Shown one piece after another: positions 48,721 to 52,862 of a stretch of 64,000 nucleotides of DNA. This DNA is from Chloroflexota bacterium (GTDB lineage Bacteria; Chloroflexota; Anaerolineae; Anaerolineales; Villigracilaceae): assembly GCA_016234495.1 (NCBI GenBank), contig JACRBI010000049.1, positions 1 to 64,000 of the forward strand, written 5' to 3'. How positions within the stretch are numbered: the first letter of the stretch is position 1; each line of letters begins with the position of its first letter. A program made the translations under genes and the position numbers. The notes under the pieces were generated by a model. The model made no database searches. It saw nothing but the letters and a program-made list of their open reading frames with translations, and was not told where the DNA came from.

Positions 48721-49974
48721 ATGAAATCAGATCTTGATGCCCTCATGAAAGCCAGAAATCTGGATGCGATCATTGTGTTCGGGAATGCCGAGCACAATCC
48801 GCCGATGTATTATTTGACCGGCGGCGGACACGTCAGCCATGCGACGATCATCAAAAAACGCGGTGAAGAAGCCGTCTTCTTTTTCGGCGACATGGAACGC
48901 GATGAAGCCGCCAAAAGCGGATTGAAGTTGATTCCCTACAGCAAATATGATTATGTGGCCTTAATGAAAAAAGCGGACGGTGACGGTCTGCTGGCGGGTG
49001 CATTGCGCTGCGAGTTGATGCTCAACGATGCAGGTGTGACCTCGGGCCGCGTCGGAATTTACGGGACGTACGACCTCAGCGCAACCTTTGGGATGCTCTC
49101 GCATTTGCAAAGACTGCTGCCGGGCATTGAGTTTGTCGGTGAGGCACGCGAAGATTCGATCTTCATGCGCGTGATGGAAACCAAGGACGAAGCCGAAGTG
49201 GAGCGCATCCGCAGGATGGGGAAGGTCACAACAACTGTGGTCGGCAAGGTCGCAAACTTCCTGACTTCGTGCAATGTCAACGCGGACGAAGTTTTACTGA
49301 ACGAAGACGGCTCCCTGCTGACGGTTGGAGATGTCCACTCGAAGGTCCGTTTGTGGGTGGCAGAACAGGGCGCAGAATTGCCCTCGGGCTTCATTTTCGC
49401 CATCGGACGCGATGCGGGCGTGCCGCACTCTGCCGGCAACCCAACCGACTTGATGAAACTCGGACAGACCATCGTCTTCGATATTTATCCCGCCGAAGCG
49501 GGCGGCGGATATTATTACGACTTCACCCGCACCTGGAGTTTGGGATATGCAACTCCCGAAGCGCAGGCTCTCTTTGACCAGGTGAAGGAAATCTTCGAAA
49601 AACTGAACGACAACTTCGACCTGAACGCGCCGTTCAAAAACTACCACCAAATGACCTGTGAATATTTTGAGTCAAAAGGGCACCAGACGCCGCTGAACAC
49701 CAAAGCGCCCGTGGAAGGTTATGTCCACAGTCTGGGGCACGGCGTGGGATTAAACATCCACGAACGTCCATTCAGCAGCCTGTTGAACAGCGATGACCAC
49801 CGGCTCAAGCCCGGTGTTGTCATCACTTCCGAACCGGGTTTGTATTACCCGGAAAAAGGCATGGGCTTCCGCATTGAAGACACGCTTTGGGTGCGTCCCG
49901 ATGGAAAGATGGAAACCCTCGCCGAGTACCCATATGATTTTGTCCTGCCGATGAAGAAGTGGAAAAAGAAATGA
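48721..49974 (+). CDS. M24 family metallopeptidase (Xaa-Pro aminopeptidase-like)
   Basis: VFDIYPAEAGGGYYYDFTRTWSLG, HSLGHGVGLNIHERP, VITSEPGLYYPEKGMGFRIEDT. Confidence 0.92.
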   Translation: MKSDLDALMKARNLDAIIVFGNAEHNPPMYYLTGGGHVSHATIIKKRGEEAVFFFGDMERDEAAKSGLKLIPYSKYDYVALMKKADGDGLLAGALRCELMLNDAGVTSGRVGIYGTYDLSATFGMLSHLQRLLPGIEFVGEAREDSIFMRVMETKDEAEVERIRRMGKVTTTVVGKVANFLTSCNVNADEVLLNEDGSLLTVGDVHSKVRLWVAEQGAELPSGFIFAIGRDAGVPHSAGNPTDLMKLGQTIVFDIYPAEAGGGYYYDFTRTWSLGYATPEAQALFDQVKEIFEKLNDNFDLNAPFKNYHQMTCEYFESKGHQTPLNTKAPVEGYVHSLGHGVGLNIHERPFSSLLNSDDHRLKPGVVITSEPGLYYPEKGMGFRIEDTLWVRPDGKMETLAEYPYDFVLPMKKWKKK

Positions 49975-50996
49975 ATCTAAAACCCGCCCGCGTGCTCGCT
50001 GTTGAAACCTCCTGTGACGAAACCGCCTGCGCCATCATTGAAAATGGCCGCGCACTGCTTTCATCCGTTGTCGCCTCGCAAATGGAAATCCATGCGCGTT
50101 ATGGCGGAGTCTTTCCCGAGGTCGCATCGCGCCAGCACGTGCTGAGCATCACGCCCGTCGTGGAGCAGGCGCTCGCGCAGGCGCACATGACCCTCACCGA
50201 CATTGACGCGCTGGCCGTCACGCAGGGACCCGGCCTCGCGGGTTCGCTGGTGGTAGGCATGAACATGGCCAAAGGACTCGCGCTTGGCACGGGGCTTCCG
50301 CTTGTAGGCGTGAATCATTTGGAAGGGCATCTTTACTCGGCCTGGGTCTACAACTCGGACGACATTGTCCCGCCCGAGCCGCAATTCCCTTTGATGGTAC
50401 TGCTCGTCTCAGGCGGACACTCTGAACTGAATCTCATGACCGATCATTTGACATATCAAAGGCTCGGATCAACCCTCGACGATGCGGCTGGTGAAGCCTT
50501 CGACAAAGTTGCCCGCCTGTTGGAACTCGGCTACCCCGGCGGACCCGCCGTTCAAAAAGCCGCCGAAGACGGCGACCCAAATCGGTTTAAATTTCCGCGC
50601 GCATGGCTGGAAGGTTCATGGGATTTTTCGTTCAGCGGATTGAAGACATCGGTCTTGTATGAAGTGCGTGAGTTGCAGAAGAAAAGCAGCACCCTGCCAG
50701 TTGCTGACCTGGCCGCGTCCTTCCAAAAGGCTGTGATCGATGTGCTTTTCACGAAGACCATGAATGCCGCGCGCGAGTTCGGGGCAAAGGAAATTCTGGT
50801 TGCCGGCGGGGTTTCGGCGAACCGTCCGCTGCGCCAGATATTCAAATCTCAAACTGAATTCCCGGTTCATATTCCCCCGTTGGCGCTTTGCACCGATAAC
50901 GCCGCCATGATCGCATCGGCCGGTTATTTCCGCTTTGCGCTTGGTCACGTCTCGCAAATGGATATGGATGTTTTGCCGACCTGGCCGCTTTCTTGA
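49971..50996 (+). CDS. tsaD: tRNA N6-adenosine threonylcarbamoyltransferase
   Basis: VLAVETSCDETACAI, PGLAGSLVVGMNMAKGLA, GVNHLEGHLYSAW, LVSGGHSEL; start MNLKPARVLAVE preferred. Confidence 0.97.
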   Translation: MNLKPARVLAVETSCDETACAIIENGRALLSSVVASQMEIHARYGGVFPEVASRQHVLSITPVVEQALAQAHMTLTDIDALAVTQGPGLAGSLVVGMNMAKGLALGTGLPLVGVNHLEGHLYSAWVYNSDDIVPPEPQFPLMVLLVSGGHSELNLMTDHLTYQRLGSTLDDAAGEAFDKVARLLELGYPGGPAVQKAAEDGDPNRFKFPRAWLEGSWDFSFSGLKTSVLYEVRELQKKSSTLPVADLAASFQKAVIDVLFTKTMNAAREFGAKEILVAGGVSANRPLRQIFKSQTEFPVHIPPLALCTDNAAMIASAGYFRFALGHVSQMDMDVLPTWPLS

Positions 50997-51055
50997 CCGC
51001 AGACGATGGACGATGATACAGATGGTCTATCGTCAACCGTCCATGATCAAAGAAT
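50997..51055. repeat. Palindromic GACGATGGACGATG...CATC/CCGTCCATG repeat (family D)
   Basis: GCAGACGATGGACGATGATACAGATGGTCTATCGTCAACCGTCCATGATC. Confidence 0.6.
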
Positions 51056-51060
51056 AAAAA

Positions 51061-51180
51061 CACTGAACCGCCTTTGACTTGCCCAAGTCATCGGCGGTTC
51101 TGTATGGAGAATGTAATTCATATTATATGGGGCGACTTTAGCACAACCTGAGCCTTTATTAAGAATTGGATGAGAGAATT
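51061..51180. ncRNA. Tandem structured element, unit 1 (hairpin plus minus-strand TATAAT promoter-like core)
   Basis: GAACCGCC-TTT-GACTTG-CC-CAAGTC-ATC-GGCGGTTC at 51065-51100; conserved downstream blocks GGAGAATGTAATT, TATTATAT, GCGACTTTAGC, GGATGAGAG shared with unit 2. Confidence 0.5.
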
Positions 51181-51250
51181 TCTCAAATTTTCACACGGCC
51201 AGTAATCGTAGATGGTCTCAGAAGGATTTCGCGTTGTCGGATTTAAAGCT

Positions 51251-51372
51251 CAAACCCCGCTTCAGACTTGCCCAAGTCTGTCACGAGGTTTGTTGAGGGG
51301 AGAATGTAATTGTTATTATATCCAGCGACTTTAGCCAGACCTGAATAAAACTTAAATATCGGATGAGAGTTT
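51251..51372. ncRNA. Tandem structured element, unit 2
   Basis: CAAACCCCG-CTTC-AGACTTG-CC-CAAGTCT-GTCA-CGAGGTTTG at 51251-51292; same blocks at the same spacing as unit 1; stems differ but stay paired. Confidence 0.5.
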
Positions 51373-51981
51373 TTACTTCAAAGCCGCCACCAATTCATCC
51401 AATGAAATTGGACCTTCGCGTAATATGACTGGAATATGTCCCGTGCAATCCACCAGCGTGGATGGGACTCCGCCCGGAGTCGTTCCGCCATCAAGGATCA
51501 ATGGGATGCGCCCGTTGAGTTGTTCGTAAACTTCCTGTGCAGAAGTTGGGTTTGCTCCGCCTGAAATGTTGGCCGAGGTGACTGCCATTGGACCGGCGGC
51601 GCGTAATAGCGCGAGCGCATCCGCATGATTTGGGATGCGGACTGCGACGGTGGAGGTGGCAGAAACTGCCAAAGGGAGAGTCTGCTTTTTGGGGACGATG
51701 CAGGTCAAGGGTCCGGGCCAGAAGCGGGCGGCAAAACGGATAGCCATGTCTGGGGTATTGTCCGCAACTTTTTCGAGGTCGCTCAAATCTCCGATCAAAA
51801 TTGGAATGGCTTTTTCGATGGGACGATTCTTTGCCAGGTAAATGCTGTTGATTGCGTCGTTGTTGAATGCGAGCGCGCCAAGCCCGTAGACGGTGTCGGT
51901 GGGGAAGGCGACGATGCCGCCGCTTCGTAAAATATTGAGCGCGGATCGAATCTCACTGGCAGGGATGATTTCTGTTTTCAT
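51373..51981 (-). CDS. Threonylcarbamoyl-AMP synthase (Sua5/YrdC/TsaC family)
   Basis: LRSGGIVAFPTDTVYGLGALAF, NRPIEKAIPILIGDL, MAVTSANISGGANPTSAQEV. Confidence 0.94.
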   Translation of the reverse strand: MKTEIIPASEIRSALNILRSGGIVAFPTDTVYGLGALAFNNDAINSIYLAKNRPIEKAIPILIGDLSDLEKVADNTPDMAIRFAARFWPGPLTCIVPKKQTLPLAVSATSTVAVRIPNHADALALLRAAGPMAVTSANISGGANPTSAQEVYEQLNGRIPLILDGGTTPGGVPSTLVDCTGHIPVILREGPISLDELVAALK

Positions 51982-52862
51982 GGAAAGATGATTTCAAGCA
52001 GGCGGTCGCGGCCTGTCAGGTCTTGATGCAAATGGATGGTGACATCGGAAAAGGAATCGTAAGCGAGGCTGAGGGCTTGAACTCCGAGCGTGGCTTCGAT
52101 CTCGAGCAGCATCATGCCGTGCGGTGCGAGCCAGTCGGGGGCGAGTTTGAAAAGGCGGCGATATATTTCAAGACCGTCCGCGCCGCCGTCGAGAGCGAGC
52201 GTGGGTTCGCGGCCAAAGATGGGAAGTTGATGCAGCGTTTCGGTGGGGATGTAGGGCAGGTTGGCGCAAAGAAGATCAAATGCGGAATGCGGAATGCGGA
52301 ATGAAGAATTTGGGTATTCTGCATTCTGCATTTTGCGTTCTGACTTTGGGAGCAGATCACATTCCACAAAATTTATCTGGTGATGGACGTGGAATTTTTG
52401 CGCATTGCGCTTTGCCACTTCGAGCGCGGCAGGCGAAATGTCGGTGGCGAGGATTTGCGCATCTTCGATGTGCATGGCGATGGATGCGGCGATGATGCCG
52501 GAGCCTGTGCCAATATCTGCCACGCTTCGGGCTTCGGGACGGCTGGTCAGCCACGAGATTGCTTTTTCAACCAGCAGTTCGGTTTCGGGGCGCGGGATGA
52601 GGACGTCTTTGGTGATGTCGAAATCGAGGCCGAAGAATTCCCAGTGACCGAGGATGTAGGGCAGCGGCTCGCCCGCCGTCAGCCTTGAAAATGCCTCTGT
52701 CGCTGAATCAATTTGCGGCTGGGTCAGATGCGTTTCAAGATGGGCCAGCAGCCACGTGCGCGGATGTCCGATGACATGCGCGAGAATCAATTGCGCGTCG
52801 AGGTCAGTCGAATCGTTTTTAAGTTGGGAATTGAATTGCGTGAGCAGTTCACCGGCGTTCAT
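51978..52862 (-). CDS. prmC: Peptide chain release factor N(5)-glutamine methyltransferase
   Basis: PLPYILGHWEFFGLDFDITKDVLIPRPETELLVE, VADIGTGSGIIAASIA, DLLCANLPYIP; contains a repeat-derived insertion. Confidence 0.92.
   Translation of the reverse strand: MNAGELLTQFNSQLKNDSTDLDAQLILAHVIGHPRTWLLAHLETHLTQPQIDSATEAFSRLTAGEPLPYILGHWEFFGLDFDITKDVLIPRPETELLVEKAISWLTSRPEARSVADIGTGSGIIAASIAMHIEDAQILATDISPAALEVAKRNAQKFHVHHQINFVECDLLPKSERKMQNAEYPNSSFRIPHSAFDLLCANLPYIPTETLHQLPIFGREPTLALDGGADGLEIYRRLFKLAPDWLAPHGMMLLEIEATLGVQALSLAYDSFSDVTIHLHQDLTGRDRLLEIIFP

Follow-up and report, generated by a model that had tools for sequence, protein, structure and literature searches.

The envelope-stress small RNAs (sRNAs) of enterobacteria, MicA, RybB and CpxQ, repress many mRNAs for envelope proteins at the ribosome-binding site (RBS) under the control of an envelope-sensing regulator. 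Response regulators (RRs) of the OmpR/PhoB family typically use sites of four direct repeats, spaced at 11 bp, that reach almost to the −10 box and take the place of the −35 box; the Pho boxes of PhoB and SphR are tandem 11-bp direct repeats of this kind in place of a −35 box. Work with streptococci has described the CiaR site as a direct repeat, NTTAAG-N5-TTTAAG, with an 11-bp period and a location just upstream of TATAAT (PMC3091779). The window considered here, a stretch of 64,000 nucleotides of Chloroflexota DNA, contains members of a small RNA gene family that was previously undescribed and is conserved across an order of that phylum. The two units in question are probably paralogous, RR-activated anti-Shine-Dalgarno sRNA genes that would restrain envelope-protein synthesis, a reading that draws on sequence analysis. 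Searches of an open-access library turned up no work on trans-acting sRNAs in this phylum.

The units are imperfect copies that lie 193 nt apart between tsaD and a sua5-like gene (GGAGAATGTAATT at 51106 and 51299), where an earlier, sequence-only reading had placed them at a distance of about 190 nt. As that reading had also described, hairpins and sequence blocks, including GCGACTTTAGC and GGATGAGAG, recur in both units at matching spacing. Read on the minus strand, each unit runs from CTCTCATCC through TTTAAGT or CTTAAT, TTCAGGT, CTAAAGTCGC and TATAAT to AATTACATTCTCC, and then to a two-part hairpin with a GGGC loop and a run of T's (Table 1); AAUUACAUUCUCC is the conserved 5′ motif in each. 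In the RNA fold the 5′ part, including ACAUUCUCC, is unpaired and there is a single hairpin, which in both units is far more stable than shuffled sequences (z-scores in Table 1). Unit 1 ends in a strong T tract, while the hairpin of unit 2 is terminator-like and has a short T run (GAGCTTTAAA) to about 51244. A promoter and terminator scan of the window gave no match because the promoter lacks a −35 box. Within the window's family the GGGC loop of the hairpin is kept while the surrounding stem changes. At 52280-52340 of the window, an in-frame inverted-repeat insertion in prmC, with the run ATGCGGAATGCGGAATGAAGAAT...ATTCTGCATTCTGCATT, adds about 20 residues (KMQNAEYPNSSFRIPHSAF).

Table 1. Features of the two units and of the genes that flank them (positions in the window)
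Feature	Position	Strand	Basis	Remark
tsaD	49959..50996	+	ORF, synteny	Convergent neighbour in the window's family
Unit 1 T-rich tail AGTGTTTTTATTCTTT	51049..51064	−	Direct reading	Terminator tract
Unit 1 hairpin, GGGC loop	51065..51100	−	Fold z −5.6, covariation	
Unit 1 predicted RNA 5′ region AATTACATTCTCC, seed	51106..51118	−		
Unit 1 −10 box TATAAT	51122..51127	−		
Unit 1 putative operator, four 11-bp direct repeats	51132..51175	−	As for unit 2	
Unit 2 hairpin, two stacked helices, GGGC loop	51251..51292	−	Fold z −3.9, covariation	
Unit 2 RNA 5′ region AATTACATTCTCC, predicted RNA start and anti-Shine-Dalgarno seed	51299..51311	−	ACATTCTCC conserved, perfect complement of RBSs	
Unit 2 −10 box TATAAT	51315..51320	−	Near-invariant in homologues	
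Unit 2 putative operator, TCTCATC.. / TTTAAGT.. / TTCAGGT.. / CTAAAGT..	51325..51368	−	Invariant T/A columns, 36 homologues	
sua5-like gene	51373..51981	−	ORF, synteny	Conserved neighbour upstream of the element

Homologues were found by blastn in 46 of 151 relatives, and a covariance model located the element in 139 of the 349 genomes of the order that were searched, spread over nine families; the records scanned were, by their names, metagenome-assembled genomes (MAGs) of Anaerolineales/Chloroflexota. The structured units that the sequence-only reading had described thus have copies well beyond this locus, and Rfam covariance models run on the window and eight homologous loci matched no known family, giving chance microRNA matches only. 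Because the palindromic hairpin draws in reverse-strand matches, nhmmer was run with the promoter part, which is not a palindrome, and 42 copies were gathered and aligned. The usual place of the element is just downstream of prfA-prmC-sua5, often in two copies and sometimes elsewhere; in almost all loci checked it stands directly behind prmC-sua5 and opposite tsaD. Diverged copies in eight other families retain the repeats, the −10 box and CATTCTCC(TC), and usually TTTAA, while the hairpin sequence differs. Extra copies with operator, seed and hairpin were seen at L253-L255 (G735), L256, L258, L260 and L262, and one MAG gave up to six sRNA matches.

Compensatory changes in the outer stems, first noticed between the two units, are borne out by the homologues. 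Across 40 of them, 92.8% of cells pair versus 70.5% when shuffled, and the covariation score of the hairpin is 0.597, as against 0.198 for shuffles and at most 0.121 when slid, with double changes at all nine scored pairs (9/9). Counting of G-U pairs leans towards the minus strand as the transcribed one, though not significantly (30 versus 18, p=0.1). It is very improbable that these hairpins serve only to end the prfA-prmC-sua5 operon and the convergent tsaD, with the upstream blocks incidental. Their stability, the convergent intergenic position and the lack of any other terminator after sua5 would suit such a role, but it leaves the conserved 11-bp repeats, the −10 box and the seed unexplained; moreover, the further copies found at unrelated loci in some genomes have the whole architecture intact, which argues against a mere operon terminator. 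The original proposal of tandem minus-strand small RNA genes, each with its own promoter and terminator, is the one supported, as conservation covers the −10 box, the RNA 5′ end and the hairpin/terminator jointly, at loci away from sua5 too.

Tandem copies, a hairpin and additional dispersed copies in some genomes could also bring to mind a mobile or REP-like repeat spread by transposition. This is hardly credible for an element that keeps a fixed locus in nine families, has two copies in its own genome and was seen in no association with a transposase. In a tree of the copies, the two from this locus fall into two lineages, which also split the paired copies of most same-genus relatives, and the duplication is therefore old.

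The upstream blocks are a putative OmpR-type activator site, to judge from their layout. In 36 homologues the invariant operator columns T5/A7, T16/A18, T27/A29 and T38/A40 follow an exact 11-bp period, lags 11 and 22 stand out, and none of 5000 column permutations reaches the observed value; in unit 2 the repeats read towards lower coordinates. Of the promoter first proposed for each unit, CAGGTY-17-TATAAT, the near-invariant TATAAT stands, whereas CAGGTY as a −35 box has to be rejected, since it is the third of the four 11-bp repeats. The sequence-only reading had missed this activator site and the ACAUUCUCC anti-Shine-Dalgarno seed, and it had proposed neither a regulator nor targets, for both of which there are candidates.

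A model built from the sRNA promoters alone, run on the window's own genome, recovered the two units and one further site, which ranked third (E 0.014). This site is in the stretch that separates an OmpR-type RR gene from the gene of its histidine kinase (HK), in the HK promoter and beside an ECF sigma factor. A combined model trained on both sRNA and HK promoters found only these three sites in the 4.1 Mb genome at E up to 10, and the motif is therefore not a general promoter. Of 28 readable HK upstream regions, from the own genome and same-genus relatives, 19 show the site, with TCAGGT-N5-TTAAACT-like repeats and a TANNNT box ahead of the HK start. The RR of this pair is likely the regulator of the sRNA genes, being the best candidate that the promoter sequences offer. 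It matches generic OmpR-type models, with none above its cut-off among the 25 listed, and PhoB, for which this RR alone was compared, was rejected as its identity (229.8 bits versus an equivalog cut-off of 296.2).

A regulated sRNA could conceivably answer to a different OmpR-family RR encoded elsewhere, of a phosphate or envelope type for example, that also controls the HK gene. Sites of 11-bp repeats are common to many OmpR-type RRs. The HK has an operator only in the window's genus, whereas 20 genomes of other families have the HK behind the RR and no such site before it, and another OmpR-type regulator could therefore own the site; the RR's own promoter in the genus, too, shows an extended −10 and no operator. 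We nevertheless consider a different RR rather unlikely, as three sites in a whole genome, one of them at a two-component gene, are the usual pattern of autoregulation.

Several observations were made around the candidate RR-HK pair. A conserved TATGGTATATTTT extended −10 promoter lies upstream of the RR gene at L070-L099, and at the same loci of the genus the HK −10 box is only a few nt before the ATG, which may leave the HK mRNA with almost no leader. The HK of most other families lies directly behind the RR. The RBS of the RR in many relatives, GGAGnAATGCC, could base-pair with the seed of the sRNA if one bulge is allowed, a possible feedback, and this pairing is not conserved in the own genome. 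At L112:7489-8834 (G000 contig 35), an ECF sigma factor gene and then a gene for a likely anti-sigma-type membrane protein are divergent to the pair, which suggests an envelope-stress island.

The 5′ end, AAUUACAUUCUCC, is the exact complement of GGAGAAUGUAAUU, and the motif is perfectly complementary to RBSs of the form GGAGAAUGUAA. The own genome has six non-self exact GGAGAATGTAA sites, four of which are RBSs 12-13 nt before an ATG. These four belong to predicted targets encoding a cytochrome c lipoprotein, a band-7/SPFH protein, a Yip1-domain protein and an unnamed membrane protein, with predicted duplexes of −15.7 to −17.2 kcal/mol. The pattern GGAGAATGTAA-N(1-4)-ATG occurs 45 times in 37 same-genus genomes, versus a single match to the reversed-pattern control. 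These sites are spread over 24 protein families, and their counts are not fully independent because orthologues recur among genomes. When one base was varied, G, the perfect complement, gave 45 sites, A 20, T 16 and C 3, against 17% G in the background RBS spacers of a 400 kb sample (binomial p about 3e-14).

The products of these genes have the look of membrane-bound or secreted proteins. A transmembrane-like segment occurs in 40 of 44 scored products and 20 of 24 families versus 42 of 105 GGAG-site genes of the background, drawn from the same 400 kb sample (Fisher p 3e-9 for products and 2e-4 for families). Among the products are a DUF4190 membrane protein, an ECF transporter S component, a PTS EIIC-GAT permease, a xanthine/uracil permease and NuoJ, together with multihaem cytochromes and a probable cytochrome oxidase subunit II that were picked out by eye. 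Most target families recur in few genomes only, and the target set therefore drifts. The comparison families are not a clean negative control, since some of their genomes have diverged sRNA homologues.

One further possibility is that the seed has another role, in protein binding or as a sponge of ribosomes or other RNA, and that its match to RBSs is a by-product of a common Shine-Dalgarno-spacer sequence. In fact, CAUUCUCCUC also resembles the anti-Shine-Dalgarno sequence of 16S rRNA, and the conserved GGGC loop is left without explanation by target pairing. Such a role is improbable all the same: in the one-base test the exact complement comes out ahead of the A/T variants that composition would predict, and membrane proteins are strongly over-represented among the products.

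The anatomy of the units, their conservation and covariation, the period of the operator, the site held in common with the HK promoter, the enrichment of the perfect complement at start codons and that of membrane products are read directly from the DNA. From them we infer transcription, the identity of the RR, activation and the sign of control, pairing in the cell, and repression. Each unit would be a gene for a trans-acting sRNA of about 65-70 nt on the minus strand. Upon sensing of a signal by the membrane kinase, an OmpR/PhoB-family RR would bind the four 11-bp repeats that stand in for the −35 box and activate the TATAAT promoter of both sRNA genes. The RNA would begin at about AAUUACAUUCUCC and end in the hairpin terminator, and its single-stranded 5′ end could pair over 11-12 nt with GGAGAAUGUAA RBSs, the predicted targets being mostly membrane, lipoprotein, cytochrome and transporter genes. 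By occluding the Shine-Dalgarno sequence and spacer of envelope-protein mRNAs, the RNA would lower translation and so act as a brake on envelope-protein synthesis.

We give even chances to a wider proposal, an order-wide envelope-control circuit of Chloroflexota in which a two-component system switches on the gene of its own kinase together with an sRNA family of several copies, and in which a single 5′ seed of 11-12 nt silences membrane-protein mRNAs that share the GGAGAAUGUAA RBS and whose set drifts. Such a circuit would have evolved independently of streptococcal and enterobacterial counterparts. If true, the tie between an envelope-sensing two-component system and an anti-Shine-Dalgarno sRNA would have arisen again in a distant phylum, and its target code, GGAGAAUGUAA before an AUG, would be predictable. 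With anatomy, regulator site and target signature all legible in this way, the network is directly testable.

Each of the known systems shares part of this design. The repeat layout is like that of the Pho boxes of PhoB and SphR, while the candidate RR falls below the PhoB cut-off. With MicA, RybB and CpxQ the predicted output is held in common, namely repression of envelope-protein mRNAs at the RBS; the sequences, however, are unrelated, and there is no sign here of sigma-E or Cpx control. The streptococcal csRNAs consist of two stem-loops flanking an unpaired region, whereas the Chloroflexota element has one hairpin and a 5′-terminal unpaired seed, four repeats of which one is TCAGGT, target AUGs that lie beyond the seed, and a host in a different phylum. 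Neither membership in the csRNA family nor a relation by sequence is accordingly claimed. What the element does share with these CiaR-dependent RNAs is an OmpR-type direct repeat that has an 11-bp period and precedes a −10 box, several similar copies, an unpaired anti-Shine-Dalgarno sequence with CAU (here ACAUUCUCC, the complement of RBSs) and a terminator hairpin (PMC3091779), and the best reading is that it would work in the manner of the csRNAs.
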